A program made the position numbers and the translations under genes. Under the pieces are notes generated by a model. That model searched no databases, was not told the origin of the DNA, and worked only from the letters and a program-made list of their open reading frames with translations. A DNA stretch of 64,000 nucleotides, from NCBI RefSeq assembly GCF_003344785.1, contig NZ_QPMK01000002.1, positions 343,758 through 407,757 of the forward strand, in the 5' to 3' direction. The stretch comes from Thalassococcus profundi (GTDB taxonomy: Bacteria; Pseudomonadota; Alphaproteobacteria; Rhodobacterales; Rhodobacteraceae). Below, in pieces: positions 1 to 39,369 of this stretch. How positions within the stretch are numbered: position 1 is the stretch's first letter; every line of letters begins with the position of its first letter.

Positions 1-300
1 GACGCCCGCGCGAAAGCCGAGGCGCAGGCCAAGGCCGAGCGCGAAGCCGCTGAACGCCGCAAGCACGCCGAGGAAGAGGCGCGCCGGAAGACGGCGGAGG
101 ACAGCGCCCGCGCGAAAGCCGAGGCGCAGGCCAAGGCCGAGCGCGAAGCCGCTGAACGCCGCAAGCACGCCGAGGAAGAGGCGCGCCGCAAGGCGGAAGA
201 CGATGCCCGCGCGAAAGCCGAAGCGCGGGCCAAGGCCGAGCGCGAGGCCGCCGAATCCCGCAAGCGTGCAGAGGAAGAGGCGCGCCGCAAATCGGTGGCG
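1..300 (+). repeat. Three tandem in-frame repeats encoding a charged coiled-coil
   Basis: A unit of 33-34 codons (about 102, then 99 bases) occurs three times at the 5' edge, beginning near positions 4, 106 and 205. It encodes alternating A/K/E/R residues such as ARAKAEAQAKAEREAAE and RRKHAEEEARRK. The first two copies are nearly identical at nucleotide level and the third has diverged. Further copies may precede the window. Confidence 0.9.
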
Positions 301-1188
301 GCGACGCGGAGCGAGGCCGAGGCCCAAAGTCTGGCGGTGACGAATGCCATGCGTCAGGGCGAAACTGCCCCGCCCGCCGAAGTACCGCCGGCGCCTGCGC
401 CTGTCCTTGCGCTCGACCCGGAGCGGCGGGTGTCAGACGCTGTCGTCGCGCCGCAGGATGCGGCCTCGGGCTGGCAGCGGCTGGGCACCTTCGATCTCGA
501 CGCCCGCATGCTCGAACGCAACCGCATCATCACCGCCGCCCGCCAGGATCCGGCGCACACCACCTTTGACGTGCTGCGCACCCGGCTCTTGCAGGCACTG
601 GCCGAGCGGGGCTGGTCCCGGGTGGCGATCACCTCTCCGACCAAGGGCTGCGGCAAGACCTTCACCGCCGCCAACCTCGCCATCAGCCTCGCGCGCCAGG
701 AAAACTGCGCGACCCTGCTCCTGGATCTCGACATGCGTGCGCCCACTTTGCACAAGACCTTCGGGCAGAAGTCTGTAGGCAGTATCGGCGACATGCTGCG
801 GGGCCGGGTCGATCCGGCCGACCATCTGCGGCGTCCCGGACCCAACGCGATGAATGTCGGGCGCAACATCGCCTTCGGCTTCAACGACGTGACAGAGGAT
901 TACGCGTCGGAATTGCTGCAGGACCCTGTCACCGCGCAGACGCTGAAGACCATGACCGACACGCTGCGCCCGGACGTGGTGATCTACGACATGCCGCCGG
1001 CGCTCAGCTCGGACGACGTGATCGCCTTCCGCGCGCATTTCGATGCGGTTCTGCTTGTGGTGGGCGGCGGGCTGACCACCGATGCCGAAGTCAAGGATGT
1101 GGAGCGCCGCCTGGGCGAACAGACGCCGCTTCTGGGCATGGTCCTGAACAGGGCCGAAGGCACAAACCCGGCGAAATACGCCTACTGA
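1..1188 (+). CDS. CpsD/CapB-like polysaccharide biosynthesis ATPase (tyrosine-kinase family), 5' truncated by window edge
   Basis: The frame is open from base 1, so the N-terminus lies outside the window; 395 residues are visible. The first ~100 visible residues are a Lys/Glu/Ala/Arg-rich helical region built of near-identical units, presumably a coiled coil. The last ~250 residues are a P-loop domain of the MinD/BY-kinase type: Walker A SPTKGCGKTFTAANLA around residue 215, Walker A' LLLDLDMRAP around 240, and Walker B VVIYDMPPA around 330. BY-kinases pair with Wzz/Wzc membrane proteins and control length and export of polysaccharide; the Wzz-like gene converging on it fits. The C-terminus has only two tyrosines (KYAY), so a classic tyrosine cluster is absent and kinase activity is uncertain. 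The domain assignment is firm; the role is inferred from family and context. Confidence 0.85.
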   Translation, partial: DARAKAEAQAKAEREAAERRKHAEEEARRKTAEDSARAKAEAQAKAEREAAERRKHAEEEARRKAEDDARAKAEARAKAEREAAESRKRAEEEARRKSVAATRSEAEAQSLAVTNAMRQGETAPPAEVPPAPAPVLALDPERRVSDAVVAPQDAASGWQRLGTFDLDARMLERNRIITAARQDPAHTTFDVLRTRLLQALAERGWSRVAITSPTKGCGKTFTAANLAISLARQENCATLLLDLDMRAPTLHKTFGQKSVGSIGDMLRGRVDPADHLRRPGPNAMNVGRNIAFGFNDVTEDYASELLQDPVTAQTLKTMTDTLRPDVVIYDMPPALSSDDVIAFRAHFDAVLLVVGGGLTTDAEVKDVERRLGEQTPLLGMVLNRAEGTNPAKYAY

Positions 1189-1227: not shown

Positions 1228-2544
1228 TCAGGTTTGCGACAGGCGCGGCAGGATGCGGTCCAGCCCCAGCTGCCAGATCTTCTCTCCGAAGAAGCGCATG
1301 ACCCCGAAGATCGCCAGCGCCACCGCAAGCAGCGCCGCCCCCCACTTGATCCGGCGGCCGCGAATGTCCCGGCGGGTCTTGATCGGCGGGATCGACACGA
1401 CGGGCTGCAGACCCAGCGCCCGTTCCATCTGCGCCGGCGTGCGGATCGCCGGGTTGCGCATCTCGGCCAGGAAGGCCGCGCCGATGCCCAGCAGCAGGCT
1501 GGCAAAGGCCCCCATCATCGCCGTGCGCTTTCGGCTGCGCGAGATCGAGAATTCGGGCACCAGCGCGGTTTCGAGAATTTCGAATCGATCCGACTGCGCC
1601 CGGTCCTCGAGCATCTGTCCCATCTCCGCCTCGGCAGTGCGGCGGGTGATGACCGTGTACTGTTCCTGCAGACGGCTGAGCTCGCGTTCCATCGCGCCCA
1701 GCGTGCGCTCGACCTCCGGGGCCTCGCGGATCTGCTCTTCGATGCGGGTCAGCCGGGCGGCGATCAGGGCTTTTTGCTCTTGCAGCAGGGCGATCTGGCG
1801 GTCCAGCACCTCTTCGCGCTGCCGCTCGGAATTGCTTTGCAGGGTCACGATCTCCTGGTCCAGCCGCAGATCGGCCTCGCGCAGCGACCCGGCCTCGCTG
1901 CGCAAAAGTGCCAGGCCTTCCGGCAGGTAGCGCGCATTCTCGCGTTTGAACGTGGCGATGCGGTTCTCGATTGCGGTGATATCCGCCTCTACGCGTTCCG
2001 ATTCCGAATTGAAGAAATCGAAGGTGTCGCGGACACGTGTCTCGGCCCGGGTGGCGGATTGTTCAACCAGCGACCGGGCCAGTTCGTTGGCCAGCGCCGC
2101 CGCCTTGACCGGATCGTCGACCTGGGCGGTGATGTAAAGACCGGTGGCGGCACCGCGCTGCCAGGACGGGGAATCGTCGCGAATCTCGACGATGCGCACG
2201 GATTGGCGCATCCGCGCCACCCGTTCATTGAGCGAAAGTTCGGGATCGTCGGTGTAGATTTCCAGGTCGTCCATGATCGCGATGACATTGTCGCGCGCCA
2301 TCAGCCGCTGTTCGATCAGCCGCAACCGAAGGGTCGCGTCTTCTCCCTCGGCGGCGGCACCGGACATGGCTTCGGGAATGCGGGCTTCCTCGATCTGCAC
2401 GACGGCGGTAGCCTCGTACATCTTGATCATGTTCGCCGCGAAATACATCGACAGCACGCAGCCCAACAGGAAGATCGGCACGATCAGATAGGCGCGGCGG
2501 CGCAACGCGGCCATCACCTCGTCAACGGACTGGAACTGGTTCAT
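1228..2544 (-). CDS. Wzz/GumC-like polysaccharide chain-length determinant (inner membrane)
   Basis: 438 residues. An N-terminal Wzz domain begins MNQFQSVDEVMAALRRRAY, with a first membrane helix at about residues 16-35. A long periplasmic section rich in heptad-like Leu/Arg/Gln/Glu (roughly 150-320) follows, then a second helix (MMGAFASLLLGIGAAFLAEM) and a third hydrophobic stretch near the C-terminus. There is no ATPase domain, so it would work with a separate CpsD kinase, which is the convergent neighbour 40 bases away. I chose the ATG at 2544 because GGGAG lies 8 bases upstream and the Wzz domain starts immediately; the frame is open further upstream but that extension looks non-coding. 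Predicted to control chain length or export of an exopolysaccharide. Confidence 0.85.
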   Translation of the reverse strand: MNQFQSVDEVMAALRRRAYLIVPIFLLGCVLSMYFAANMIKMYEATAVVQIEEARIPEAMSGAAAEGEDATLRLRLIEQRLMARDNVIAIMDDLEIYTDDPELSLNERVARMRQSVRIVEIRDDSPSWQRGAATGLYITAQVDDPVKAAALANELARSLVEQSATRAETRVRDTFDFFNSESERVEADITAIENRIATFKRENARYLPEGLALLRSEAGSLREADLRLDQEIVTLQSNSERQREEVLDRQIALLQEQKALIAARLTRIEEQIREAPEVERTLGAMERELSRLQEQYTVITRRTAEAEMGQMLEDRAQSDRFEILETALVPEFSISRSRKRTAMMGAFASLLLGIGAAFLAEMRNPAIRTPAQMERALGLQPVVSIPPIKTRRDIRGRRIKWGAALLAVALAIFGVMRFFGEKIWQLGLDRILPRLSQT

Positions 2545-2748
2545 CTGACTGCTCCCGCAATGGGCCCCCAATGCGTTCGTGAAGAAAGCGCCCGGGCAGG
2601 TCCTGGGGTCTGGTCCCATTCCACCCGGCACACGCCTTCTTCACGCCCCAATCTAGGCAATTCGCCCTAATTTTGCCACGTATTTCCTAGGGGCCGAGGG
2701 AAACAGATCATTTCCAAATGCGTGTTTCTGAACACATTTTCGCCATAT

Positions 2749-3414
2749 TCAGCGACGCAGCACGCTGAGGGACAGGCAAAGCCCCGCGGTCTCCCATTGC
2801 CGCACCACGATCCGCGACCCCGCGACGAAGGGGGGAACCTCCTCCGAAAAGCGGAACGTCAGGGTATCGGCTTGTCGTTCAGCCAATCCGAGGGTGTGAA
2901 AGCCGAACACCCGGCGGCTGAGCGGATACTGCGCCTTGTAGGCGGCTTCCTTCGCGGAAAAGAGGCGCTTGGCGGCCAAGGAGGGCGCGCCGCCCATCCT
3001 CCGCAACTCCAGCGACGTGGCGATCGACGGCATCAGGTCGGCATCCAGAGCGCCCGCCGATTCCACATCGATGCCCAACGCCGCGATGTTGCCTTCGCGT
3101 GCCGCGACCGCGATGCACAGGTCGTCCATGTGGCTGATGCTGCCGCAGAGGCCCGAGGGCCAGACCGGCGCGCGGTCGCTGCCCATGGGGATCGCCACCG
3201 GCGCCACGCCAAGCTGCGACAGCGCCATGCGGGCCGCGGCGCGGCCGGCGGTGAACTCTGCGACCCGGCGCGGCACGGCACGGGTCATCGCCGCGGACTC
3301 TGCGGGGTAAATCGCAGGCAAATCGCCGCCCGCGCGGGTCATCGCAAGCGCGACTCCTGTGGGCATCTGCGCCTGCAGCTTCCTGCACAGCGCCTCGAGT
3401 TCCTGGGGTGCCAC
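2749..3414 (-). CDS. 4'-phosphopantetheinyl transferase, EntD/Sfp type
   Basis: About 221 residues from a GTG four bases after the NRPS stop, which implies translational coupling; the exact start is uncertain. It carries the family features: a GRAAARMAL helix, GSDRAPVWPSGLCGSISH with the substrate-contact GS.SH, the metal-binding motif LGIDVE near residue 113, and FSAKEAAYKAQYP near 151. It transfers phosphopantetheine from CoA to a conserved serine of carrier proteins. As last gene of the four-gene operon it should activate the carrier domains (GGHSL) of the adjacent NRPS and PKS. Confidence 0.93.
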   Translation of the reverse strand: MAPQELEALCRKLQAQMPTGVALAMTRAGGDLPAIYPAESAAMTRAVPRRVAEFTAGRAAARMALSQLGVAPVAIPMGSDRAPVWPSGLCGSISHMDDLCIAVAAREGNIAALGIDVESAGALDADLMPSIATSLELRRMGGAPSLAAKRLFSAKEAAYKAQYPLSRRVFGFHTLGLAERQADTLTFRFSEEVPPFVAGSRIVVRQWETAGLCLSLSVLRR

Positions 3415-3418
3415 GACC

Positions 3419-6400
3419 TCAGGCGCTGCGGCGCGCACGCATCGCCCTCCGGCGCGCCATCGCTTCACTACGCATCCGGGCGCGGTCGGTGTTGGCGGGC
3501 TGCGGGTGCAATTGCGGCGCCGGTGCGGTGACGACCGGAGCGGCACGGGTCGGCAGTACGGGCGCGGGTTGCGGCGCGGGCGCCTGCGCCGGGTCGATCA
3601 GCTCTGCGACCCGTCCCGCCAGCGCCGACAGCACCGGGAAGCGGAAGATGTCGGTGATCGACAGCTTCGCCGCGCCCATCTCTTCGCGCAGAAGGCGGTG
3701 GGTCTGCACGGCAAGCAGCGAATGACCGCCGAGGTCGAAGAAATTGTCGCGGCCCGACACGGACTCGATGCCCAGCACTCGGCACCAGACGGCGCCGACG
3801 CGCGCCTCCACGTCACTGCTCGCCTGCCGCGTTCGGGCCGCCGCGGGTCGCGGCGCCGGGGCCTTGGCCTGCGGCGACTTCGGCGCCGGCAAGGCATTAC
3901 GGTCGACCTTCTTGTTCGGCGTCAGCGGAAAGCTTTCCAGCCGGACGAATCGCGACGGCACCATCACCTCGGGCAGCACCTCGGCCAGCGCCGCTTTCAG
4001 CGCAGCTTCGCCCAGGTCCGCGCCGGCGGTGTAATACCCGACCAACCGGACGTCACCCGGCTGATCCTCGCGCGCGGCCACGACTGCCTGCTGCACGCCC
4101 GCCTGCGCCTCGAGAGCGGCCTCGATCTCGCCGAGCTCGATCCGGTGACCGCGCAGCTTGATCTGGTGGTCGACCCGCCCGACGAAATCGATGCGGCCAT
4201 CGGCGCGGCGCTGCACGAGGTCGCCGGTGCGATACATCCGGCCCGGGTGGAACGGGTTGTCGCGGAACCGATCGGCCGTCAGCTCCGCCCGGTTCCAGTA
4301 GCCGCGCGTCACGCCATCGCCGCCGATCCAGAGTTCCCCGGGCACGCCAATGGACGACGGCTCCTGCGCGTCATCCAGCACATAAAGCTGGGTGTTGGCG
4401 ATGGGCAGACCGATGTTGACCACCCCGTCGCCCGCGACGGCCGGTTCGGTCGAGGACCAGATCGTCGTTTCCGTCGGGCCGTACATGTTGGTGATGCGCG
4501 CCTTGGTAATCTTGCCGAATTCCGCCACCAGCGCGCCGGGCAACGGCTCTCCGCCCAGCATCAGGTGCTGCACGCCGCGCAGCGCAAACCGCGCCTCGTC
4601 GTTCATCGCGATCATCCGCGCCATCGACGGGGTGCATTGCAGGTGCGTGACGTCATGGCGCAGGATCTGCGCCGCGATGGAGAAATCGTCCGTCGCCAGT
4701 TCCGTATGCTGATTGGCCAGCCGGTTGACCTCTGCCAGCGGGCGCAACCCTTCGAGAACCGCGTCCGGCGCCATGCCATAGTCGATGAGGCAGGCAATCT
4801 CGCCCACGCCGATCTGCTTGAGCTGTTCGGTCCGCGCCAGCGCATCCTCGACGGTGCCGAACAGGCCGCTGTCGTTGAAATAGCGCTCGAAGGCGAAATC
4901 GAGGATGCCCTCGAGTTCCTCTTCGCTCAGCGACCCGAGGTCCAGTTCGAAGGGATTTTTCACCCCCTCGGGTTTCTTGAAGGCCGGAAAGGCCCAGGCG
5001 TATTGCTTGATGAGGCCCGCCGCCGAACGCAGGTAGTCCTTCATCGGCTCGCGCGCGATCTCGCGCGCCGCGTCGCGGGTGTCGGCCAGGCAGGTGTGCA
5101 GCATCAGCGTGACGGTGAAATCGTCCGGGTCATGCCCCGCCTCGCGCAGCGCGCCGTGATAGAGCGTGATCTTGCCCGCAACCTCGTCGATGGACTGGCC
5201 CAGCAGGTGCGTCAGCACGTTGGCGCCGAGCCGTCCGGCCTCTTTCCAGGTCTCGGGATTGCCGGCGGTGGTGACCCAGACCGGCAGCTCTTTCGACACC
5301 GGGCGCGGCTGCGTCACCACCTCGTGCAGCGTGCCGTCCTTGCGCGGAAAGGCGACCGGCTCCCCGGCCCAGAGCCTGCGCAGGGTGCCGATGGTCTCGA
5401 TCATCGCGGGCTTGTTGTCGGGTGGTGTGTTCTCGGGCCGCAGCACGAAATCGTCGGGCTGCCAGCCGCTGGCGATGGCCATGCCCGCGCGGCCGTTGGT
5501 CAGGTTGTCGATCACCGCCCATTCCTCGGCGATCCGCGCGGGATGGTGCAGGGGTGCGACACAGGACCCGGCGCGCACGCCGATGTTTTTCGTAAACCCG
5601 GCAACGGCGGCACCGGTCACGGAGGGGTTCGGATAGGGGCCGCCGAAGGCGTGGAAATGCCGCTCGGGCGTCCAGACCGCGACAAAGCCGTTGTCGTCGG
5701 CGAATTTCGCGCCTTCGATCAGGGTCTTGTACTTCTCGGGACCGACGCCGTCGTCATTGCCCCAGTAGTAGAGCGAGAACTCCATGCCGCCGACCGACGG
5801 CAGCGGGCCGTTCGAGATGAGGCCGCGGTCGGCATCCGAGGTCAGCACCACCTTGAAGCCGCGGGCGGTGGCATAGAACAGTTCCAGCACCGAGATGTCG
5901 AAGGACAGCGACGTGACCGCCAGCCAGGTGCCCGCCGGATCATGCGCGATGCGCTGGTCCATCCCGGCGTAAAAGTTGATGACGTTGCGGTGTTCGATCA
6001 TCACGCCCTTGGGCAGACCGGTGCTGCCCGAGGTGTAGATGAGATAGGCGAGGTTCTCGGCCCCCGAGGTGTCGGGCAGATTGTCCGCCGCTGCCGCGTC
6101 GATCCGCGGATCGGCATCCAGCACCAGAACCTGCGCGCCGTGCGATGGCAGCGTCGGCCGAAGATCGCCTTGCGTGACGATGACCGGCGCGCCGCTGTCG
6201 GTCGCGAAATGCGCCAGCCGGTCGGCGGGATAGGCCGGGTCCATCGGCAGGTAGGCGCCGCCCGCCTTGAGGATCGCCAGCGCGCCGACCATCAGGTCCA
6301 CAGACCGGGGGGTGCACAATCCGACGACCGTGTCCGGCCCGACGCCCATATCACGCAGAACATGCGCGACGCGGTTGGCGCGGGCGTTGAGTTCGGCGTA

Positions 6401-8014
6401 GGTGAGGCTTTCGGTCTCGAAGACCAGCGCGGTGGCATCGGGCGTCCGCGCCACCTGCGCCTCGAAGGCGCGGTGCATGGTCAGGTGGCGGTCGAAATCC
6501 GTGCCGGTGTCGTTCCAGCGGTTGAGCACGAGGTCGCGTTCCGCGGCGGGCAGAACGGGCAAGGGCGCGTCGCCATCAAGCGCCCCGTGACTCGCGACAT
6601 GATCCAGACGCGCTGCCAACAGGGCCGCGTGTTCCGCCGAGAACGCGCCGGTGTCGGCATGCAGCAGGCAGCCGTCGTCGCCGATCTCGACCGTCAGGGC
6701 GGCGCCCGGCACCGGGCCGCCGTCCAGCGACAGGGCGATCTGCGGCGTGTCCAGCGCGCCGATGGCCGGGTCGCGCAGGGGTAGGTCGGCGGCAAAGCCA
6801 ACGTGTTGCCAGTTGCGCTCGATCGCATCGTGGATCGCGTCGGCCTCTGCCTCCGGCAGGCGGAGCGGCACCCACGGGGACACCAGCGGGCTGCCCGACA
6901 GCCTGCCATGGCGCAGGGCCAGATCGTTGCCCGCCTCGACCAGGTGCCGCGCCCAGAGCGCGACATGCGCGGGCGTCACCGCGGACGAGAGGGTCAGATA
7001 CGTCGTCTCGCCGCTCTGCACCCCCATCCGCGCCAGCCGTACCGGCGCCGTATCGCGCAGGACATCCCGCCAATAGCCGTCATGCCGGGCGAGGTCCCGC
7101 AGCGCATCGTCGGCCAGCGGCGCATCCAGCACATCGCCCGCGGCGAGCCTGTCCGAGGGCGCGATCGCCACGCCATCGCTTGTGCGCAGACCGGACAGGA
7201 TCAGCGCCCCCGTCCCGCAGGCCACCGTGAGGCGCGTGTCATCCGCCGCCAGAACCGTGCCCGGCGCGCCGCTGCCATCGGTCAGCCGCGCCGCGCCGAT
7301 GTGCCAGAGCCTACCGGCGACGTGCATCTTCGCGGTGCAAAGCGGGTTCCAGTAGCCGCCGTGATCCAGTGCGCGCACCAGCCGCTCCAGGTCTTCGGCG
7401 GGTCGGGCAAACTCCAGCTGGCCGCCGTGCTCGGGCCGGTCGGCCAGCGCGTGGTAGCTGCGTTGCGACAGGTCCTGGGGCTGCGCCTCGGGCGTGCCGG
7501 ACTCCAGCGCCACGCACAACGCGTCGAAACTGTCGAGACCTTCGGCGAAACACTTGGTGTTGAGCGTCAGCGCCGTGTCCTCGGCGCCGATGTCGAACCG
7601 CCGCTGCACGAGGATGTCGCCGGTGTCGGCATCGCCCGTCATCCGGTGCCAGGTGATGCCGTGCCGGGTTTCTCCCTCGATCAGCGCCCAGACCGGGGCG
7701 TTGAGACCTGCGTGCCGCGGCAGCGGTCCGTCGTGGAAATTCACCGCACCTTTTGCGGCGATATCCAAAACCGGTTGCGGCAGCATGTCGAGATTGGCGA
7801 TGCTCAGCAGCCAGTCGCAGCTCAGCCCGGCGAGCCGGTCCGCCAACCTCTTGCCCGGCGCAATCACCCGGATCCCCTGCCCCGCGGCCCAGTCCGCAAG
7901 GTCGGTGTTGCGTGTCACCAGCGCCGCAATCCGGTGCCCGCGCGCCAGCAGCTTTTCGCTGCACTGAAGGGTCAGGGACTGGTTGCCGATCACGAGGGCG
8001 GTAAAGCTGGACAT
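3419..8014 (-). CDS. NRPS: formyltransferase-like / truncated C / A domain with internal luciferase-like monooxygenase / carrier
   Basis: 1,531 residues. Residues ~1-240 resemble Fmt-type formyltransferases, keeping NFHDGPLPRHAG near 91 and the GDADTGDIL aspartate near 130. Residues ~330-490 look like the C-terminal half of a condensation domain without HHxxxDG. The adenylation domain begins near 505: A3 YTSGSTGLPKG near 660, A4 FDISVLEL near 705, A5 MYGPTETTIW near 1175, A10 lysine NKKVD. Between A4 and A5 an FMN-dependent luciferase-like monooxygenase (~744-1083; GMAIASGWQPDDF) is embedded, as in the MupA/Atu3671 family. The carrier serine is in DLGGHSLLAV near 1428. By hand alignment to GrsA the specificity residues read DILQMGMIWK, one or two changes from the glycine code DILQLGLIWK. 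With no intact C domain it is probably a starter module feeding the PKS. Domain calls are firm; substrate and chemistry are inferred. Confidence 0.9.
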   Translation of the reverse strand: MSSFTALVIGNQSLTLQCSEKLLARGHRIAALVTRNTDLADWAAGQGIRVIAPGKRLADRLAGLSCDWLLSIANLDMLPQPVLDIAAKGAVNFHDGPLPRHAGLNAPVWALIEGETRHGITWHRMTGDADTGDILVQRRFDIGAEDTALTLNTKCFAEGLDSFDALCVALESGTPEAQPQDLSQRSYHALADRPEHGGQLEFARPAEDLERLVRALDHGGYWNPLCTAKMHVAGRLWHIGAARLTDGSGAPGTVLAADDTRLTVACGTGALILSGLRTSDGVAIAPSDRLAAGDVLDAPLADDALRDLARHDGYWRDVLRDTAPVRLARMGVQSGETTYLTLSSAVTPAHVALWARHLVEAGNDLALRHGRLSGSPLVSPWVPLRLPEAEADAIHDAIERNWQHVGFAADLPLRDPAIGALDTPQIALSLDGGPVPGAALTVEIGDDGCLLHADTGAFSAEHAALLAARLDHVASHGALDGDAPLPVLPAAERDLVLNRWNDTGTDFDRHLTMHRAFEAQVARTPDATALVFETESLTYAELNARANRVAHVLRDMGVGPDTVVGLCTPRSVDLMVGALAILKAGGAYLPMDPAYPADRLAHFATDSGAPVIVTQGDLRPTLPSHGAQVLVLDADPRIDAAAADNLPDTSGAENLAYLIYTSGSTGLPKGVMIEHRNVINFYAGMDQRIAHDPAGTWLAVTSLSFDISVLELFYATARGFKVVLTSDADRGLISNGPLPSVGGMEFSLYYWGNDDGVGPEKYKTLIEGAKFADDNGFVAVWTPERHFHAFGGPYPNPSVTGAAVAGFTKNIGVRAGSCVAPLHHPARIAEEWAVIDNLTNGRAGMAIASGWQPDDFVLRPENTPPDNKPAMIETIGTLRRLWAGEPVAFPRKDGTLHEVVTQPRPVSKELPVWVTTAGNPETWKEAGRLGANVLTHLLGQSIDEVAGKITLYHGALREAGHDPDDFTVTLMLHTCLADTRDAAREIAREPMKDYLRSAAGLIKQYAWAFPAFKKPEGVKNPFELDLGSLSEEELEGILDFAFERYFNDSGLFGTVEDALARTEQLKQIGVGEIACLIDYGMAPDAVLEGLRPLAEVNRLANQHTELATDDFSIAAQILRHDVTHLQCTPSMARMIAMNDEARFALRGVQHLMLGGEPLPGALVAEFGKITKARITNMYGPTETTIWSSTEPAVAGDGVVNIGLPIANTQLYVLDDAQEPSSIGVPGELWIGGDGVTRGYWNRAELTADRFRDNPFHPGRMYRTGDLVQRRADGRIDFVGRVDHQIKLRGHRIELGEIEAALEAQAGVQQAVVAAREDQPGDVRLVGYYTAGADLGEAALKAALAEVLPEVMVPSRFVRLESFPLTPNKKVDRNALPAPKSPQAKAPAPRPAAARTRQASSDVEARVGAVWCRVLGIESVSGRDNFFDLGGHSLLAVQTHRLLREEMGAAKLSITDIFRFPVLSALAGRVAELIDPAQAPAPQPAPVLPTRAAPVVTAPAPQLHPQPANTDRARMRSEAMARRRAMRARRSA

Positions 8015-8019
8015 GTCAG

Positions 8020-9033
8020 TTACTCCGGGGTTGCCTTGAGCCGCAGCGTCGGCGCAAGCGGGGCCGCGAGGGCCGGGCGGCGCCGGAACAGAGCCCGCAG
8101 GTCATGCAGGATCAGACCGCGCAGAAAGCCGGGCGGATCAGCGGGCGGCTTGCGCTGGATCACCCGGCGCAAACGCCACAGCAGCCCGCCCGCGAGATGC
8201 GCCAGCGTCGCGGCGACGGCATAACCGCGGCCATGGTTCTTGACGAAGTAATGCCAGCGGCTGTCGTACCAGTAGCCGGGCATCTTCTTCCAGGTCTTCA
8301 TCCCGGTCGAGACCGACCCGATATGCGCAACGCGGCTGGCAGGCACGTAATGCGTCTCGAACCCGGCGCGGGCGGCGCGCAGGCAGAGGTCGGTTTCCTC
8401 GAAATAGAGAAAGAAGGTCTCGTCGAAGAGGCCGATCCGTTCCAGCACGTCGCGCCGCATCAGCATCGACGCCCCGGCCAGCCAGTCGACCCGTTGCGCC
8501 TGTTCGGGCAGGTCCAGCGGCACCCGGTGGCGCGCCAGAAGACGCGAGATCGGGCCGAACCGGGCCGCCCCTTCCAGTTCCGACAGGATCGACGGGAAGC
8601 GGAAGGCGGTCACGTGCGGATCGCCTTCGGGTCCGTGGATGTGGCTGCCGGCAAAGCCCGCCTGCGGATTGGTGCGCAGATGCGCCAGAAGCCTGGAAAT
8701 GGCATCGGGGGCGGGAAAGGCGTCGGAGTTGAGGATATAGACGAACTCCGGCGCGTCGCCGTTGGCAAGCTCCGCGCGAATGCCAATGTTGTTGCCCGCG
8801 CCGAACCCGCCGTTATGCCCCGACCGCAGCAGCCGCACCGGTTTCCCGCGCGCCCAGTCGGCGGTCGCGAGCCCCGCGGCGATCTCTTCGAAAGACCCGT
8901 CGCGGCTGTCGTTGTCCACAATGACCAGTTCGCCACCGGTCGAGGCCATTGCCGCCAGCGCCGCCTCGGCCGATTGCAGGGTCATCGCCGGGGTCCGGTA
9001 GTTCAGGATGACCGTCAGGAGGGTGGGTGTCAT
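8020..9033 (-). CDS. Family 2 glycosyltransferase in the NRPS/PKS operon
   Basis: 337 residues with a GT-A fold: opening LLTVILNYRTP, VIVDNDSRDGS, GHNGGFGAGNNIG, a DxD-like ILNSDAFPAPDA near residue 103, and the acceptor-side motif DETFFLYFEETDLCLRAARAG. This pattern is typical of rhamnosyl/GT2 enzymes of surface polysaccharides. The ATG at 9033 lies 4 bases after the PKS stop and the gene ends 5 bases before the NRPS start, so it is co-transcribed. That suggests either glycosylation of the assembly-line product or a polysaccharide step recruited into the operon. The sugar donor and acceptor cannot be read from sequence. Confidence 0.88.
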   Translation of the reverse strand: MTPTLLTVILNYRTPAMTLQSAEAALAAMASTGGELVIVDNDSRDGSFEEIAAGLATADWARGKPVRLLRSGHNGGFGAGNNIGIRAELANGDAPEFVYILNSDAFPAPDAISRLLAHLRTNPQAGFAGSHIHGPEGDPHVTAFRFPSILSELEGAARFGPISRLLARHRVPLDLPEQAQRVDWLAGASMLMRRDVLERIGLFDETFFLYFEETDLCLRAARAGFETHYVPASRVAHIGSVSTGMKTWKKMPGYWYDSRWHYFVKNHGRGYAVAATLAHLAGGLLWRLRRVIQRKPPADPPGFLRGLILHDLRALFRRRPALAAPLAPTLRLKATPE

Positions 9034-9037
9034 CGGC

Positions 9038-12000
9038 TCACTCCGCCGCCCGTGCGGCATCGAAGGACACCACCGTGCCCCGGTGGGTCGCCTCGGCCTC
9101 GGCGCTCGCGATCTCGTCGCGCAGGATGGCGGCGAGAACGCGCACATTGGGCTCCAGCACCATGCTGTCGTGGTCGCCCGGCACCTCGTGCACCGTGATG
9201 CGCGGCGCGTGCTGGGTCCAGTCGTTGTCGGGCAGCACGTAGGCGCGGTCGGCATCGACCAGACGACCCTCGCTCACCGTCCAGTGGCCATGTTGCGGCG
9301 GCCGGAACAGCGCCAGCCGCCCGTCCCAGGGCGCGACCTCGTACTGCGCCACGGCACCGAGGAAGGCCGCCTCGATCTCGGCATTGTGGAAGGCGTGTTC
9401 GGTGGCGGTCTGCTGGTAGCCCTTCTGGCGCTTGCGCATCTCCCACGCCAGCCGGTTGCGCGCCCAGGTCAGCGGATAGAGCGGCCCCTTGCGGCGCAGC
9501 TCCTGAAGCTGGATCAACATCCGGTCGCGGCCCGTCAGCGGCCGGCGCTGCGGCAGCGGCGTGTCGAGCATGACCACCAGCGCCACCTCGTCGCCCATGG
9601 CGCGCAGTTGCTGGGCGATCTCGTAGGCGGTGATGCCGCCGCCGGAAAAGCCGCCGACCATGTAGGGGCCATCGGGCTGCACCTGCTTCATCTCGGCAAT
9701 GTAGTCGCGGGCCGCTTCGGCGATGGTGCGATGCGGCGCCTCGTCGCCGTAAAGCCCGCGCGCCTGCACCCCGTAGAACGGGCGGTCCGCGCCCAGCAGA
9801 TGCGCAAGGTGCCGCAGGTTCAGCACGTTGCCGAACATGCCCGCGACGAGGAAAAACGGCGTCCGCGACCCGCCTTCGCCGTCGTGCATGGCGACCAGGT
9901 GCTTGAACCGGCGTTCCGGTTTCTGGACCACGGGTGCTGCGCCATCCTCGCTGCGCGCACCTGTGCGTTCCGCGATGAGGGCCGCGCATGTGCGGATCGT
10001 CGGCGCCTCGAACAGGATCGAGATCGGGAAATCGACGCGATATGCCTTGCGCACCATGGAGAACAGCCGCACCGCGATCAGGGAATGCCCGCCAAGGTCG
10101 AAGAAACTGTCCTCGACCCCCGGATCGGATACGCCCAGCAGCTCCTGCCAGAACCCGGCCAGCGTGCGTTCGATGTCGTTGGCCGGAGCGACGTAGTCGC
10201 CGTCCAGTTGCGGGCGGTCGAACTTCTGCGCCTCACCCGCCTCTGCGGTACTGGCGGCGGTCTGCCGCGTCAGCGCATCGAGGTCCATGGAACTGACGAC
10301 GACCTGGGTTGCGCCTAAGGCCAGCGCGCGGGCAAAGGCCTCGGCCCCCTCGGCAGGCAGGATGCCTTGCGTGAGGTTGTGATGCAGACGTTCCTCGGCC
10401 GCCGACAACGGCTGCGCAGTCCCGTCTGCGGCATCGTCGAACTCCACCTCGGCAGGCGTCAGGCGCGGTGCGGCGCTGAGCACGGCGATATCCTCGAGCC
10501 GGCGGATGGTGAAGCCGGTGATGTCCACGCAGACGGTGCCATCGGGGGCGGCCAGGGTGATGTCGAAACTCGCGGTCTCATCAGTGGCGGTATTGCCGCC
10601 CGCGTTGCGCACCCAGGACACGATCCGATCGGGCAGCGGATGAAACACCCGCACCCGCGCATAGGACACCGGCACCCAGAGATGCGTCGGACGGTAGCCG
10701 TCGATCAACTCCATCGCCCAGCCGGTGGCGATGTCCAGCAGCGCCGGATGCAGGACGAAGCCTGCGTCGTCGCGCGCCTCTGCGGGCAGCGACAGTTCGG
10801 CGATGCCTTCGCCCTCGCCCAGAGCTCGCGTGTCGAGCACTCGCCAGCGCGGACCGAAATTCAGATGTACCTCTTGGCCGGTGCGCAGCTTGGTGCCGCC
10901 CGCATGGGCCTGTTCCGCCCCGCAGCGGGCACGGATCCCGGCCACATCGAGTACCCGCGGCTGCGCCAGCGGCACCAGCGCCAGGCTGCCCTGCGCGGTC
11001 AGACATCGGCCCTTGCGCCCCTTGAGCATGCAATCGGCCTGCACCTCGAAACCGTAGCCCGCATCGTCGCGCGTCAGCCGCACCTGCACGTCGCGCGCAC
11101 CACCGTCGGGCACATGCAGCGGACGCAGGAAGGTGAGGTCGCGGATCTCGAAGGCGCCGGTTTCACGCTGCGCCTTCAGCGCATGGGCGGCGAGCGTGAG
11201 GTATCCGGTGCCGGGCAACAGCGCGTCGCCCTGCGCGGTCCGGTGTTCGTCGATCACCCAGTCCTCGGACGTCAGGCGAGTGCGGAAGATGCGGTTGCCC
11301 TTGGCGTCGAAACTCGCCTCGTCCAGCAAAGGTACGCCGGGATCGGTGACCGGCGCCGCCGGGGTGTCGCCGCTGCGCGCGGCAACCGCTTCGGCGGCCA
11401 TGCCGACCTCGTTCCAGATGCCCCAGTTGATCGCAACCACCCGGGTCCTGCCGCCTGCGCGCGATGCGGCAAAGGCGTTGAGGTACTCGTTGGCGGCGAC
11501 GTAATCCACCTGCCCCGCCGGAGCCGTGACCGTGGAGGACGAGGAAAAGAGCGCGATCCACGCGACCGATCCGTCCGGGAACACCCGGTCGAGCACCTGC
11601 GTGCCGTGGATCTTGGGCGTGAAGACGTCCTCGATCGACGCCGGCGACTTGGCCAGCAGCGGCGCGTCGGCGATGACGCCCGCGCCGTGGATGACGCCGG
11701 TGATCGGGCCGAATTGGGCCACCGTCTCTTCGGCGATCCGGCGCATCTGGCTTTCGTTGCAGACGTCGGCGGCGGCGATCCGCACCTGCGCCCCCATGGC
11801 TTCGAGCATCTGCACGGCGCGGATACGGCGGGCCGTGGCGTCCTGCGGCGCGTGCCGCGCCAGGTAGTCGGGCCAATCCTTGCGCGGCGGCAGGTCTCCG
11901 CGCGTCACCAGCACTAGGTTGGCCCCCGTTCGGGCGAACTCCTGCGCCAGCGTCAGGCCGATACCGCCGAACCCGCCGGTGATGAGGTAGGTGCCGGGAG

Positions 12001-15000
12001 CGTAGACGGGTGCCTCGGCCGTAGCCAGCCGCACCGGCTTCATCGCGCATTCGAACCGGCGCGCACCGCGCAGGGCGGCGATGCTGTCCGCGGGCTCCGC
12101 CATCAGGTCTTCGAGGACGCGCAGGGCAAGCGCGTCCATCGCGGCCTCCTGCGCGGCGCGGGCCTTTGCACCGCCGAAGAGTCCGGCATCGTCCGCCGTG
12201 GGCAAGAACACGTCCAGCGTCGCCACCGACACGCCGGGCAGTTCGCGCGGGATCACCCGAGCCGGCCCCGCGATCGTGGCCTTGGCGGGATCGGTCAGCG
12301 CTTCGTCCCGCACCTGCGCGGCGCCGTTGGTCACCACCGTCATGTGCAGCGGACGCGGCAGGTTTTCGTCCGCCATGGCCTGCGCCAGGAACAGCAGCGC
12401 GTAGAAGCCCTGCTCCTGCATCCGGTGAAAGAAGCTCGATCCGGGGCGGTGACCGCGATCCGCCGTCAGCAACCAGAAATGCGACACGCGGTTGGGCACA
12501 TGGCCATGCTGCATCAGGTCCTGGATCAGCAGGTCATAGCCTTCGCGCCCGCGCTCGGGCGCGATGACGTACGACGTCTCGGACAGGCGGGCAAAGCTGT
12601 CGCCGGCGCGCAGCTCGATCACCGTGTGGCCAGCAGCGGTCAGGCGCGCGGCGCATCGCGCCGCGATGCCCGCGTCGTCCATGAACATCAGCCAGGTCTG
12701 CGGATCGGATTCGTGCAGCCCCTCGGCCACGTCGACCTCGGCCAGAGCGGCGCGCGGGCGCCAGACCGGTTTCCAGCCCCAGCCGGCGATGTCGTCGCTG
12801 CGCATCAGGTATTGCGGCGCGGTGTCCGCCTGCGCCTTGCCCGGCGCGATGAAATAAGGCGCGCGCTGGAAGGCGTAAGTCGGCAGCGGCACGCGGTTGC
12901 GGCGCGCCTCGCCCCAGACCTGGCCCCAGTCGAAATCGGCGCCCAGCGCCCAGAGCCGCCCCAGAACCTCGAACATGTGCATGTCGTCGGGGATCGCGTC
13001 GTCGGGATGGCGCAGTGACGACAGCACCTGCTGGCCCGGCACGGACCCGTGTTGGCGGGTCAGCGCCGAGAGCGCCTTGCCCGGCCCGACCTCGAGGAAG
13101 ATGCGGTTGTCGGCGGCCAGCGTGCCGATGCAGTCGGCGAAATGCACGGTGTGGCGCAGATGCTCGACCCAGTAATCGGGATCTGTGGCCTGCGCATCGG
13201 TCATCATCTGCCCGGTGCGGTTCGACGTCAGCGGAATCTGCGGCGGCATCAGGTCGATGCTGCGCAGGTAGGCGCGGAAATCCGCCAGGATCGGGTCGAG
13301 CATCCGGCCATGGGCGGCAATGTCGATGGGGATGCGCTGGCAGTCGATATCCGCGGTGCGCAGCCGCGCCTCGAGCGCGTCGAGCGCCGCCTGCGGGCCT
13401 GACGCCACGGACAGCTCGGGTGCATTGACCGCACCGAGGTCGAGGTCGTCGCCCAGCATCGGGCGCAGCTTGTCGGCCGGCAGGCCCACCGAGAGCAACC
13501 CGCCTGCGGGCACGGAATCGAACAGACGCCCGCGCAGGTGCACGAGGCCGATGCAATCCTCGAAGCTCATCACGCCGGCGACGCAGGCGGCGGTATTCTC
13601 GCCCATGCTGTGCCCGGCAAGGACGGCGGGCTGCACCCCCCAGCTCATCCAGAGCTGGGCCAGCGCGTATTCTACGATCATGATCAGCGGAAGTTGCAGC
13701 GACGGGCGGGTGAGCACCTCATCGGCCCGTTTCCGGTCCTCTTCGGCAGGAAGCCACAGCGCCTTGATGTCGGTGTCGTCGATCTCGGACAGAACGGACA
13801 GGCCGCGGTCCATCCAGTCTGCAAAGACCGGTTCGGTCTCGTAAAGGTCGCGCGCCATGCCTGCATATTGCGCGCCGCCGCCGGGGAAGAGAAAGGCGAC
13901 ATCCGGCGCGTTCAGAGCGGTGTGGCTGTGCACACGGCGCGGTGTGTCGTCTTCGAGCAGGCGGGCGGCGTCGGCATGGCTCTGCGCCACGACGATGCGG
14001 CGCTTTTCAAAGGCGCGGCGGCCTTCCTTCAGCGTATAGGCCACATCCGCCAGCGCCTGATCGGGATGCGCGCGCAGATGCGCCGCCAACCGCTTTGCGT
14101 TCGCATCGAGCGCCGCCTTGCTGCGGCCCGACACGGTGAGGATCTGGAAGGGCCAGTCGCTGGCCTGCGACGGCGCGCGGTCGGGCGCCTCCTCGATCAC
14201 CGCATGGGCGTTGGTGCCGCCGACGCCCAGCGAATTGACTCCGGCCCGGCGCGGCTGCGCGCCGCGCGGCCAGTCGGTCAGCCGGTCGTTCACGCGAAAG
14301 GGCGAGCCTGCGAAGTCGATGGCGGGGTTCGGCGCCTCAAAGCCGAGGCTGGGCGGCATCTGCCGGTTGTAGAGCGCCAGCGAAGTCTTGATCAGCGACG
14401 CGACGCCGGCGGCGGTATCCAGATGGCCGATGTTGGTCTTGACCGATCCGATGCGGCAAAAGCCGGTCTTGTCGGTGGTCTGCGAAAACGCCTGGCTCAG
14501 GGCGGCGACCTCGATGGGATCGCCAAGGTATGTGCCGGTTCCGTGGCATTCGACGTAGTCGACGGTGTCGGCGCTGACGCCCGCCACCGCCTGCGCCTCT
14601 GCCACCGCCTTGGCCTGGCCGTCGACCGACGGGGCGAGGTAGCCGGCCTTGGCGGCACCGTCGTTGTTGACCGCCGTGCCCTTGATGACCGACCAGATAT
14701 GGTCTCCATCGGCGATCGCATCCGCCAGCCGCCGCAGCACCACGACACCGGCACCCGAGCCAAAGACAGTGCCCTGCGCGCGATGGTCGAAGGCGTGGCA
14801 TTCCCCGTCCGGCGACAGGATCTCGTTTTCCTTGTAGAGATAGCCGCGGTTCTGCGGCAGCTCGACCGTGACACCGCCCGCGATGGCAAGGTCGCATTCG
14901 CCGTTGAGCAGCGCCTGCACCGCGTAATGGCTGGCCACCAGCGATGTCGAACACGCGGTCTGCAGGTTCACCGACGGGCCGGTCAGGTCGAACACGTGAC

Positions 15001-15511
15001 TCGCGCGGGTGGTCATGAAATCCTTGTCGTTGCCGGTATGGCGCAACAGGAACATGCCGGTGCCGTCCACAAGATCCGGGTTCGAACACAGATTGAAATA
15101 GAAGTAGCTGCCCATGCCGCAGCCCGCGAAGACACCGACCTGACCGGGGAAGTTCTCGGGGACGTGCCCGGCGTTCTCCAGCGCCTCCCACGTCACTTCA
15201 AGGAATTGCCGGTGCTGCGGGTCCATGATCGCGGCCTCTTTCGGCGAGAAGCCGAAGAACTCCGCATCGAACATCTCGAACCCGTCGAGCGGCGCGGCGA
15301 AGGGCACGTAGTTCTTGTGCCGCATCAGGCCCGGATCTTCGCCCGCCTCGCGCAGCTCGTCTTCGGTCAGGCGGCGGATCGACGAAACGCCGTCGCGCAG
15401 GTTGCGCCAGTAGGCGGCAATGTTCGCGGCACCGGGCAGATGCGCGGCCATGCCGACGATGGCGATATCGGTCTCGCCGACGCCCGTCTGATGCCTCTCT
15501 TCCGCCGTCAT
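9038..15511 (-). CDS. Type I polyketide synthase KS-AT-(psi)KR-DH-ACP-TE
   Basis: 2,157 residues. KS (~15-440): TACSTSL near 187, VECHGTGT near 322, NIGHLD near 360. AT (~540-840): GHSMGE near 633; the specificity position reads IAAH rather than HAFH or YASH, so the extender is unclear, malonyl being most likely. A structural KR-like region (~880-1150) precedes a catalytic KR: TGGFGGIG near 1175 and the Ser...Tyr...Asn triad in SSSSTVT / VDYVAANEY. DH: DEHRTAQGDALLPG near 1425 and HPALLDIATG near 1590. ACP serine in DLGGHSLIAV near 1809. C-terminal thioesterase: GGFSGGG near 1955 and GDHDSM near 2112. Placing DH after KR departs from the common DH-KR order. The TE implies that this protein releases the product. 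It is first in the operon and has its own upstream region. Confidence 0.93.
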   Translation of the reverse strand: MTAEERHQTGVGETDIAIVGMAAHLPGAANIAAYWRNLRDGVSSIRRLTEDELREAGEDPGLMRHKNYVPFAAPLDGFEMFDAEFFGFSPKEAAIMDPQHRQFLEVTWEALENAGHVPENFPGQVGVFAGCGMGSYFYFNLCSNPDLVDGTGMFLLRHTGNDKDFMTTRASHVFDLTGPSVNLQTACSTSLVASHYAVQALLNGECDLAIAGGVTVELPQNRGYLYKENEILSPDGECHAFDHRAQGTVFGSGAGVVVLRRLADAIADGDHIWSVIKGTAVNNDGAAKAGYLAPSVDGQAKAVAEAQAVAGVSADTVDYVECHGTGTYLGDPIEVAALSQAFSQTTDKTGFCRIGSVKTNIGHLDTAAGVASLIKTSLALYNRQMPPSLGFEAPNPAIDFAGSPFRVNDRLTDWPRGAQPRRAGVNSLGVGGTNAHAVIEEAPDRAPSQASDWPFQILTVSGRSKAALDANAKRLAAHLRAHPDQALADVAYTLKEGRRAFEKRRIVVAQSHADAARLLEDDTPRRVHSHTALNAPDVAFLFPGGGAQYAGMARDLYETEPVFADWMDRGLSVLSEIDDTDIKALWLPAEEDRKRADEVLTRPSLQLPLIMIVEYALAQLWMSWGVQPAVLAGHSMGENTAACVAGVMSFEDCIGLVHLRGRLFDSVPAGGLLSVGLPADKLRPMLGDDLDLGAVNAPELSVASGPQAALDALEARLRTADIDCQRIPIDIAAHGRMLDPILADFRAYLRSIDLMPPQIPLTSNRTGQMMTDAQATDPDYWVEHLRHTVHFADCIGTLAADNRIFLEVGPGKALSALTRQHGSVPGQQVLSSLRHPDDAIPDDMHMFEVLGRLWALGADFDWGQVWGEARRNRVPLPTYAFQRAPYFIAPGKAQADTAPQYLMRSDDIAGWGWKPVWRPRAALAEVDVAEGLHESDPQTWLMFMDDAGIAARCAARLTAAGHTVIELRAGDSFARLSETSYVIAPERGREGYDLLIQDLMQHGHVPNRVSHFWLLTADRGHRPGSSFFHRMQEQGFYALLFLAQAMADENLPRPLHMTVVTNGAAQVRDEALTDPAKATIAGPARVIPRELPGVSVATLDVFLPTADDAGLFGGAKARAAQEAAMDALALRVLEDLMAEPADSIAALRGARRFECAMKPVRLATAEAPVYAPGTYLITGGFGGIGLTLAQEFARTGANLVLVTRGDLPPRKDWPDYLARHAPQDATARRIRAVQMLEAMGAQVRIAAADVCNESQMRRIAEETVAQFGPITGVIHGAGVIADAPLLAKSPASIEDVFTPKIHGTQVLDRVFPDGSVAWIALFSSSSTVTAPAGQVDYVAANEYLNAFAASRAGGRTRVVAINWGIWNEVGMAAEAVAARSGDTPAAPVTDPGVPLLDEASFDAKGNRIFRTRLTSEDWVIDEHRTAQGDALLPGTGYLTLAAHALKAQRETGAFEIRDLTFLRPLHVPDGGARDVQVRLTRDDAGYGFEVQADCMLKGRKGRCLTAQGSLALVPLAQPRVLDVAGIRARCGAEQAHAGGTKLRTGQEVHLNFGPRWRVLDTRALGEGEGIAELSLPAEARDDAGFVLHPALLDIATGWAMELIDGYRPTHLWVPVSYARVRVFHPLPDRIVSWVRNAGGNTATDETASFDITLAAPDGTVCVDITGFTIRRLEDIAVLSAAPRLTPAEVEFDDAADGTAQPLSAAEERLHHNLTQGILPAEGAEAFARALALGATQVVVSSMDLDALTRQTAASTAEAGEAQKFDRPQLDGDYVAPANDIERTLAGFWQELLGVSDPGVEDSFFDLGGHSLIAVRLFSMVRKAYRVDFPISILFEAPTIRTCAALIAERTGARSEDGAAPVVQKPERRFKHLVAMHDGEGGSRTPFFLVAGMFGNVLNLRHLAHLLGADRPFYGVQARGLYGDEAPHRTIAEAARDYIAEMKQVQPDGPYMVGGFSGGGITAYEIAQQLRAMGDEVALVVMLDTPLPQRRPLTGRDRMLIQLQELRRKGPLYPLTWARNRLAWEMRKRQKGYQQTATEHAFHNAEIEAAFLGAVAQYEVAPWDGRLALFRPPQHGHWTVSEGRLVDADRAYVLPDNDWTQHAPRITVHEVPGDHDSMVLEPNVRVLAAILRDEIASAEAEATHRGTVVSFDAARAAE

Positions 15512-15695: not shown

Positions 15696-17060
15696 CTACC
15701 CCGATTGCGCCGCCAAGGTGGCGATGGCGCCCCAATTCAGCCACAGCGCAACGGCGCCGAGGGCGACGCCAAGCACCGACATCGCAAGGTCATGCGCCGG
15801 GTCCCAGGCGCCCAGACGCCGTGCCAGCCAGACCACCACCGGATAGACCGCCAGAACAGCGACGCCCTGCCCCGCCAGTGCCCCGATCAGGCCGCCGGTT
15901 TCGAACCCGATCAGCAGCCCGGCGATCATCAGCGCCGCACGCGCCGCCGACAGCACGAAGAACCGTCGCGAATCCCCCGCAGCCAAGGCCGCCTGATCAT
16001 AGGTCAGAACGATGATCTGCGGGATCTGGATGCAGCCGATCAGCACCACGATGGCCCCGGCCATGGCATACCGCGGGTCGTACATGATGGCGACCAACCA
16101 GTCGCCCAGCGCCGCAAATCCCCCCACCAGCGCCAGCAGCGCCATGCTGAGGGCAAAGCGCATCTTGCGCAGTTTCAGGAAATTGGCGCGGCTCTCGCCC
16201 GGCGGGCGTTCGCGGTAGATCGGGATCAGCACTTTGCGCGTCACCATGCCGCCCAGAAGCAGCGGGAAGGACGCGAGGAAGAAGCCGATGTTGTAGACCC
16301 CGAACATGTCGAGCGTCAGGTACTTGCCGATGATGAGCTTGTCGCTTTGCAGGAACAGAAAGCCGCAGACCGTCGAGAGGAAGATCCACTTGCCGAAATG
16401 CACCAGCTCCTGCACCGCCGCGCGTTCCCAGCGGAAGCGGTTCGCCTCTCCGGGCAGGTAGAGATTGTAAAGCACCAGGACCGTCACCGCGCTCACCAGC
16501 CCGCTGATGACCAGCGACCAGACCGACCCGGTGAGCCACGAGAGCACCACCGCCACGACGATCCCCAGGACCTGCGCACCGAGGTCGAGCGCGGTCAGGC
16601 GCCCCAGCACCAGGTGCCGGTTCGCCGTATCCATCCGCGTCGGGTTGAAGCCCTGGATCACCAGCGTCAGGCTCGCCACCGGCAAGAGCTGCATGAGCTG
16701 CGGTTCGCCGTAGAAACTGGCCACCGGCCAGGCCAGCGCGCAGGCCGCGAGCCAGAGGCAGACACCGCGAATCGCCTGGATCGTCCAGGCGGTGTTGAGG
16801 AAATCCCGATCGTCGCCGCGCTTGCTTTGCAGGATCGCGGGCGTCACGCCGACGTCCGAGAACATCGCGAGCCCCTGCATGAAGACCGCGATCAGCGCCA
16901 TCATCCCGAAGGCTTCGGGGAACAGCAGCCGCGTCAGGATCAGGTTCGACGCCAGCCGGATCACCTGGCTACCGCCGAATCCGCCCACCGTCACCAGCGA
17001 TCCGCGCAGGGCGCGCGCGCTCAGGCTGCCGCCGCGCATCCGGGTCAGCACGCCGATCAT
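15696..17060 (-). CDS. Wzx-type oligosaccharide flippase (MATE/MOP superfamily)
   Basis: 454 residues, strongly hydrophobic throughout, consistent with 12-14 membrane helices. The N-terminus carries the family pattern RGSLVTVGGFGGSQVIRLAS followed by NLILTRLLFPEAFG, typical of PST/Wzx exporters, which move undecaprenyl-linked repeat units across the inner membrane. The ATG overlaps the stop of the upstream glycosyltransferase (ATGA), so the two are coupled. The same reading frame stays open upstream, but that part is an alternative frame of the glycosyltransferase. The PKS operon begins 184 bases downstream on the same strand. Confidence 0.9.
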   Translation of the reverse strand: MIGVLTRMRGGSLSARALRGSLVTVGGFGGSQVIRLASNLILTRLLFPEAFGMMALIAVFMQGLAMFSDVGVTPAILQSKRGDDRDFLNTAWTIQAIRGVCLWLAACALAWPVASFYGEPQLMQLLPVASLTLVIQGFNPTRMDTANRHLVLGRLTALDLGAQVLGIVVAVVLSWLTGSVWSLVISGLVSAVTVLVLYNLYLPGEANRFRWERAAVQELVHFGKWIFLSTVCGFLFLQSDKLIIGKYLTLDMFGVYNIGFFLASFPLLLGGMVTRKVLIPIYRERPPGESRANFLKLRKMRFALSMALLALVGGFAALGDWLVAIMYDPRYAMAGAIVVLIGCIQIPQIIVLTYDQAALAAGDSRRFFVLSAARAALMIAGLLIGFETGGLIGALAGQGVAVLAVYPVVVWLARRLGAWDPAHDLAMSVLGVALGAVALWLNWGAIATLAAQSG

Positions 17061-17902
17061 CGGCCCCGGCTCCAGCCGCTTGCGCGGTGGCGGGTCAGGC
17101 GGCTGGCCAGCGCCACGCCGGAATAGACCGCGAACCCCAGCGGCGCGCGCAACGCGAGCGCCAGCTTGTCGCCCGCCGGAAAGGCCGGCTTGTCGTCGTT
17201 GCGCATCAGCTCCGGGAACCGCGCCGCGATTTCGGCCACTCCGGCATCCTGCCGCCGCCGCACCCTGGCCAGCGCGGGCAGCCCTTCGACCAGCGGCCAG
17301 TCGTAGGAGGCGGGCACGGCGATCCGTTCCGAGGGGGCGAATTGCAACCGGACAAAGGTGTCGTCCGAGATGATCTGCGGAAACGCGCCCCAGTGCGCAC
17401 GACCCGCCGCGTTGACGGCAAAGACCCCGCAACCCGGCACGCCCTGCGCCATGAACGGCACCTGACGGTAGATCCGCGCATAGGCTCGCGCGGCCCAGCC
17501 CTGCGCGGTGATCCGCAGCGTACCGCTGGCATAGCGCGGCCCATCGGTGTCCAATGCATCGTGCAATTGCGCCACGAGATCGGGCGATATGGTGACGTCG
17601 GCATCGAGGTAGACGCGGATGCCCGCCCGCGCCTGCGCCTCTCCGGCGTCGAGCGCCGCGAGCTTGCCTCCCTCGGCACGCTCGATCACCGTCAGCGTCC
17701 AGCCCTTCGCGGCAAAGCTGTCGGCCTGCGCCCGCGCGGCATCCGCGGTGGCGTCCTGGCATCCGTTGGCGATGACGATGACCTCGGCCCACCCGTCCAA
17801 TCCGCGCGACCGCGCCAGCGCGCCGAGGCAGGCACCGATCAGTGCCTCCTCGTTGCTGGCCGGGATCAGGACGCAAAGCGCCGGGTCAGAGTTCATCGCC
17901 AT
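17057..17902 (-). CDS. Family 2 glycosyltransferase
   Basis: 281 residues. GT-A features: CVLIPASNEEALIGACLGAL, VIVIANGCQDATADAA, EGGKLAALDAGE, and the DxD motif VYLDADVTISPDL near residue 97; an acidic acceptor-site stretch (IISDDTFV) follows. A late hydrophobic segment (LGFAVYSGVALA) may touch the membrane. I used the ATG at 17902 because AGGAAA lies 7 bases upstream; an internal ATG two codons later is the alternative. It overlaps the flippase gene by four bases and belongs with polysaccharide repeat-unit assembly. Confidence 0.85.
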   Translation of the reverse strand: MAMNSDPALCVLIPASNEEALIGACLGALARSRGLDGWAEVIVIANGCQDATADAARAQADSFAAKGWTLTVIERAEGGKLAALDAGEAQARAGIRVYLDADVTISPDLVAQLHDALDTDGPRYASGTLRITAQGWAARAYARIYRQVPFMAQGVPGCGVFAVNAAGRAHWGAFPQIISDDTFVRLQFAPSERIAVPASYDWPLVEGLPALARVRRRQDAGVAEIAARFPELMRNDDKPAFPAGDKLALALRAPLGFAVYSGVALASRLTRHRASGWSRGR

Positions 17903-39306: not shown

Positions 39307-39340
39307 CACGCCACTCCAGCCCACAGGATTAGGATGAACG

Positions 39341-39369
39341 TCGATACGCCCGCGACGATATTCCGGCAA
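39341..39369 (-). promoter_or_regulatory. Candidate promoter for cdiA
   Basis: On the minus strand TTGCCG (39364-39369) and TATCGA (39341-39346) are separated by exactly 17 bases, about 35 bases ahead of the cdiA ATG. Match to the housekeeping consensus is moderate. It lies in the 181-base divergent gap shared with the Sel1-TpsA-TpsB operon. Confidence 0.35.

Follow-up and report, generated by a model that had tools for sequence, protein, structure and literature searches.

The closest described systems are glycine-activating adenylation (A) domains interrupted by a monooxygenase, and starter modules headed by a formyltransferase. In MtaG and MelG, of myxothiazol and melithiazol synthesis respectively, a monooxygenase lies between motifs a4 and a5 of the glycine A domain and hydroxylates the glycyl alpha carbon, and cleavage releases an amide and leaves a two-carbon glyoxyl thioester (PMC10204066). 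Module 4 of SolF, in solanimycin synthesis, also has a flavin monooxygenase embedded in its glycine A domain, and solanimycin B retains the hydroxyglycine (PMC10204066). A survey found the specificity code DILQLGMIWK in 4/4 of its glycine A domains with an embedded monooxygenase (PMC12283262). F-A(Gly)-PCP starters feed polyketide synthases (PKSs) in conglobatin and oxazolomycin synthesis, and the F domain of LgrA formylates the residue bound to the peptidyl carrier domain (PCP) (PMC4504003).

We analysed a window of 64,000 nt from Thalassococcus profundi (NZ_QPMK01000002.1). It encodes a putative formylating initiation module with an A domain interrupted in the manner of MtaG and MelG, a combination that, as far as we found, is undescribed. 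The domains, their motifs and order, their conservation and the gene neighbourhood are all read directly from the sequence. The 1531-aa ORF (3419..8014, (-)) is organized as FT - C' - A1 - LLM - A2 - PCP, where FT is the formyltransferase, C' half of a condensation (C) domain and LLM a luciferase-like monooxygenase; Pfam, NCBIfam and homologues agree on this. In brief, Pfam recognized Formyl_trans_N/C, AMP-binding in two pieces, Bac_luciferase at residues 756-1070, AMP-binding_C and PP-binding. We compared the protein with 80 homologues, giving a set of 81 sequences. The 80 homologous loci and the invariant motifs rule out chance or artefact as the origin of the module. Within the protein, conservation is highest in the LLM insert, whose mean identity to the window is 0.81, compared with 0.66-0.68 in the A domain and 0.54 in FT.

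The N-terminal part of the A domain (5780..6466, (-); PF00501 at residues 517-729) carries motif A4 (FDISVLELF). The C-terminal part (3908..4717, (-); TIGR01733 at residues 1100-1312, and PF13193) runs from A5 (NMYGPTETTIW) to A10 (K1369). The initial annotation placed a luciferase-like insert at residues ~744-1083, splitting the A domain between A4 and A5. This is borne out, with A4 at residue 705 and A5 (NMYGPTE) at 1177 flanking an LLM (4727..5779, (-)) that TIGR04020 fits at residues 746-1096. The TIGR04020 score of 465 bits, against the curated NCBIfam cut-off of 244.45, places the insert in the MupA/Atu3671 family. The LLM motif PERHFHAFGG is invariant at the positions tested in 81/81 sequences, a PDB search matched 6ket (E 2.6e-93), and the LLM model fits 6ket with a TM of 0.89. 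The invariant motif and this fit argue for an intact flavin-monooxygenase fold, and a dead LLM is ruled out on the same grounds. The entry 6ket, from PuwE, is the flavin monooxygenase domain of a hybrid synthase and shares family and fold with the LLM of the window. Both 6ket and the FbnE-like relatives in loci L089 and L099 occur either as proteins of their own or at PKS modules, whereas the LLM of the window lies inside an A domain.

All A4-A5 inserts examined are in the same place, and nearly all have glycine-type flanks. One sequence, L091, was labelled 'other' in the insert comparison solely on account of its A5 motif, GMYGPTE. In a tree of the LLMs the A4-A5 inserts fail to group as a single clade, and there are several long branches and weak forks. 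A single origin for all A4-A5 inserts is thus unsupported by the tree, and it is the insertion point, the code and the literature, not the tree, that suggest a kinship to MtaG and MelG.

The specificity residues were re-derived from motif anchors as D706, I707, L710, Q1126, M1152, G1154, M1177, I1185, W1186 and K1369, the same string, DILQMGMIWK, that had been aligned by hand. We take the GrsA numbering of the code positions as given, the positions themselves being set by the anchors. All 81/81 sequences read DILQ[MFYL]G[ML]IWK, and three homologues of the set have exactly DILQLGMIWK. The code of the window protein differs by one residue from the DILQLGMIWK of the survey (PMC12283262). Together, the re-derivation, the conservation among homologues and the survey code speak for glycine as the probable substrate, as first proposed. 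The AlphaFold model of A(LLM)-PCP has a mean pLDDT of 82 and a pTM of 0.62. In this model 403 residues from both sides of the insert superpose on the A domain of Txo1 at 1.6 A, and the A core is predicted to be continuous across the insert. From this fit and the fit of the insert to 6ket, the monooxygenase is predicted to form a lobe of its own and to leave the fold of the A domain intact; how the lobes are oriented to one another is unreliable given the pTM.

The formyltransferase-like head noted previously is a complete FT (residues 1-310; 7085..8014, (-); PF00551/PF02911). The catalytic residues N92, H94 and D130 are present in 81/81 sequences. A PDB search matched ArnA and FMT (methionyl-tRNA formyltransferase). 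The AlphaFold model of FT-C' has a pLDDT of 92, and Foldseek aligned it to ArnA with E 1e-25 and TM 0.82; ArnA and methionyl-tRNA formyltransferase both gave TM values of about 0.8. A degenerate FT is ruled out by the invariant catalytic residues and the full predicted fold.

Between FT and A we found a half condensation domain of ~190 residues, C' (residues 312-505; 6500..7081, (-)), which was absent from the initial annotation. Aligned to a C-domain profile with hhalign (probability 94.8, E 4.8e-8), it covers columns 194-447 only, so the half bearing HHxxxDG is missing. As in other F-A-PCP initiation modules, FT and A are therefore separated by no functional C domain, only the C-terminal half of one. 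The carrier domain (3611..3802, (-); PF00550 at residues 1405-1468) has its serine, Ser1432, in 80/81 sequences, and the remaining one is unreadable at this position. A basic C-terminal tail (3422..3481, (-)) is present in 78/81 sequences and is a possible docking element towards the PKS.

Two known ways of preparing a starter, formylation and on-line oxidation of glycine, come together in the module. It shares the a4-a5 insert in a glycine A domain with MtaG and MelG, but those are terminal modules that release the chain as an amide, with an upstream C domain and a thioesterase (TE); the window protein is a starter with FT and half a C domain upstream, and no TE. SolF module 4 likewise combines a glycine A domain with an embedded flavin monooxygenase, whereas its insert lies between a8 and a9 of an elongation module (PMC10204066). 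CongA (conglobatin) and OzmO (oxazolomycin) are F-A(Gly)-PCP starters that hand formylglycine to a PKS, as the window module would; they make oxazoles in long assembly lines, and the portion of the source considered here mentions no embedded monooxygenase for them (PMC4504003). LgrA of linear gramicidin shares F-A-PCP initiation, and the models of the window protein align to LgrA structures, but the A domain of LgrA is uninterrupted and feeds an NRPS.

The partner PKS, of 2157 aa (9038..15511, (-); Pfam), has the organization KS-AT-KR-DH-ACP-TE, is kept across loci and has its active-site motifs. The motif of its DH is HxxxxGxxxxP, with one residue more than the customary HxxxGxxxxP, and has this form in the commonest variants of the clade. 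A GT2 glycosyltransferase (8020..9033, (-); Pfam) lies between PKS and NRPS, as it does at the loci of both Rhodobacterales and Hydrogenophaga. Its ATG start is 4 nt past the PKS stop, and the core-gene junctions span a few nucleotides. The ORF of a 4'-phosphopantetheinyl transferase (PPTase; 2749..3546, (-); PF17837/PF01648), with a relative at 65 loci, probably has its true start near 3417.

The half C domain, the absence of a TE from the NRPS, its presence on the PKS and the gene order in Aliiroseovarius all point to an order from NRPS to PKS, in line with the hand-over that was first suggested; the reverse order is ruled out by the same features. Aliiroseovarius has an FT-A(LLM)-PCP gene and, after it, KS-AT-KR-DH-ACP-C-A-PCP-TE. 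In Deinococcus a separate FT gene lies beside A(LLM)-PCP and KS-AT-KR-DH-ACP-C. This stand-alone gene (L092:9104-10018) is a split form of the fused module and retains the catalytic residues, which argues that FT and LLM go together. No C-domain match was obtained for the first 365 residues of the Deinococcus NRPS.

All 80 loci, from Rhodobacterales and Hydrogenophaga, encode the module, together with PKS and GT2 in unchanged order where the contig allows. The conserved locus consists of the module, the PKS and GT2, usually with the PPTase. Among 391 sampled Rhodobacterales genomes, 160 (about 40%) encode the LLM, in 65/140 genera. The initial annotation called the union of FT, LLM and glycine A domain in one starter module unusual. 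This stands in so far as our literature search, a weak negative with most subscription papers beyond its reach, returned no published description of the module or the locus; it does not stand as a statement of rarity. A genome of the same genus (G389) is without the LLM module, and the locus is thus accessory within the genus. Relatives also occur in Rhizobiales, Methylobacterium and Deinococcus. Related NRPS-PKS pairs with a divergently placed PKS are found in Aminobacter, Shinella and Rhizobium, and in Rhizobiales GT2 is not between the NRPS and PKS genes. In Paracoccus marcusii (NZ_CP143307.1 249125-250203) the match is broken into five pieces spread across a number of short annotated genes, so this copy may be decaying. 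In Hydrogenophaga flava a FAAL-ACP-C-A-PCP-TE-like synthetase (L063:18753-24764) lies just downstream of the same core.

The core is set among genes for surface polysaccharide, namely Wzx, Wzz, CpsD, glycosyltransferases, epimerases and sugar oxidoreductases, a setting that the initial annotation lacked. The Wzx-type flippase (15696..17876, (-)) matches PF13440 at residues 313-601 and has a relative at 55 loci; its ORF has a long N-terminal extension, which is probably non-coding. The Wzz-like chain-length determinant (1228..2631, (-)) is a relative of L003:17639-19084, which matches PF02706, and has a relative at 60 loci. A CpsD/CapB-like ATPase (1..1188, (+)), cut by the window edge, has a CbiA/ParA-type match and a relative at 48 loci. 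At least 2 of 14 glycan-gene queries matched at 77/80 loci. The other three are L072, with ManC and an OpgC-like acyltransferase, L069, with one match, and L058, a 10-kb contig. The queries matched nothing in 18 control stretches (19-20 kb each) of the same genome, in a small control from one contig with queries drawn from the loci themselves. Glycan genes also lie beside relatives in Aminobacter, Shinella, Paracoccus, Ruegeria, Deinococcus and Methylobacterium. We did not see a conserved dedicated acyltransferase at the loci that could place a product on a sugar.

We infer the chemistry as follows, including which atom is oxidised, what is made and what it is used for. The A domain would activate glycine and load the PCP. 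The embedded LLM, presumably FMN-dependent, would hydroxylate the glycine on the carrier, with the alpha carbon as the likeliest site by analogy with MtaG and MelG, and FT would formylate the amino nitrogen. The N-formyl group would stop the unstable hydroxyglycine from losing ammonia. C' should be unable to condense and may be a scaffold only. The starter leaving the NRPS would be N-formyl-alpha-hydroxyglycyl-S-PCP, which the PKS would take up, extend by one two-carbon unit (KS-AT), reduce and dehydrate (KR-DH), and the TE would release or transfer a small acyl product. This product would formally be N-formyl-4-amino-4-hydroxycrotonyl, or a 4-oxocrotonyl unit upon loss of formamide. It would most likely decorate, or be glycosylated into, the surface polysaccharide of the surrounding genes, a use suggested by the association with this neighbourhood. 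For a loading module that prepares an N-formyl, alpha-hydroxylated glycine, from which the PKS builds, by a two-carbon extension, a small acyl group destined for a surface glycan, we regard the chances as evenly balanced. We put forward more tentatively the wider proposal of a glycan-decorating, two-protein NRPS-PKS line that is dedicated to an acyl group derived from oxidised N-formylglycine, installs it on surface polysaccharide and is spread across much of Rhodobacterales and further lineages, including Deinococcus.

The locus might instead make an ordinary small secreted metabolite, such as a toxin, signal or metallophore, maybe glycosylated by GT2, the glycan genes being incidental or serving as shared export machinery. 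The TE on the PKS would suit such a product, as would the Aliiroseovarius relative, which has a longer assembly line and lies outside any glycan locus. The presence of glycan genes at nearly all loci and in several lineages, against none in the 18 control stretches, makes this explanation doubtful.

The LLM might also oxidise the glycine nitrogen, giving N-formyl-N-hydroxyglycyl-S-PCP, a tethered hadacidin, and a PKS product with a metal-binding N-hydroxyformamide. FT and LLM in one starter module, or as neighbouring genes in Deinococcus, are consistent with this, since formylation following N-hydroxylation would stabilise the group, and hydroxamates are usually made by flavin-dependent N-hydroxylation and subsequent acylation (PMC12971057). 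We consider this unlikely because the described embedded glycine monooxygenases act on the alpha carbon (PMC10204066), and we saw no siderophore uptake or export genes in the annotated neighbourhoods. Breakdown of hydroxyglycine on the enzyme, with formamide lost and a glyoxylyl thioester starter extended by the PKS to a reactive 4-oxocrotonyl unit, has a precedent in the two-carbon glyoxyl thioester of MtaG and MelG (PMC10204066), but is quite improbable, as solanimycin B keeps its hydroxyglycine, so that cleavage is not obligatory, and formylation would be wasteful if the nitrogen were discarded.

The module is common in Rhodobacterales, which are abundant marine bacteria. If its product is placed on surface polysaccharide, assembly-line enzymes would here be put to a new use, and the four core genes would offer an experimentally tractable locus for how these bacteria build their coats. 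The homologues are also natural examples of a monooxygenase within an A domain, useful to enzyme engineering.

Two further genes of the window should be mentioned. An RTX-type calcium-binding protein (18025-20967, (-)), with relatives at 17 loci, is encoded beside the locus. The ORF at 30703-39369, (-), encodes a two-partner-secretion protein of 2888 residues with a C-terminal Tox-REase-5 domain, and resembles a contact-dependent inhibition exoprotein.
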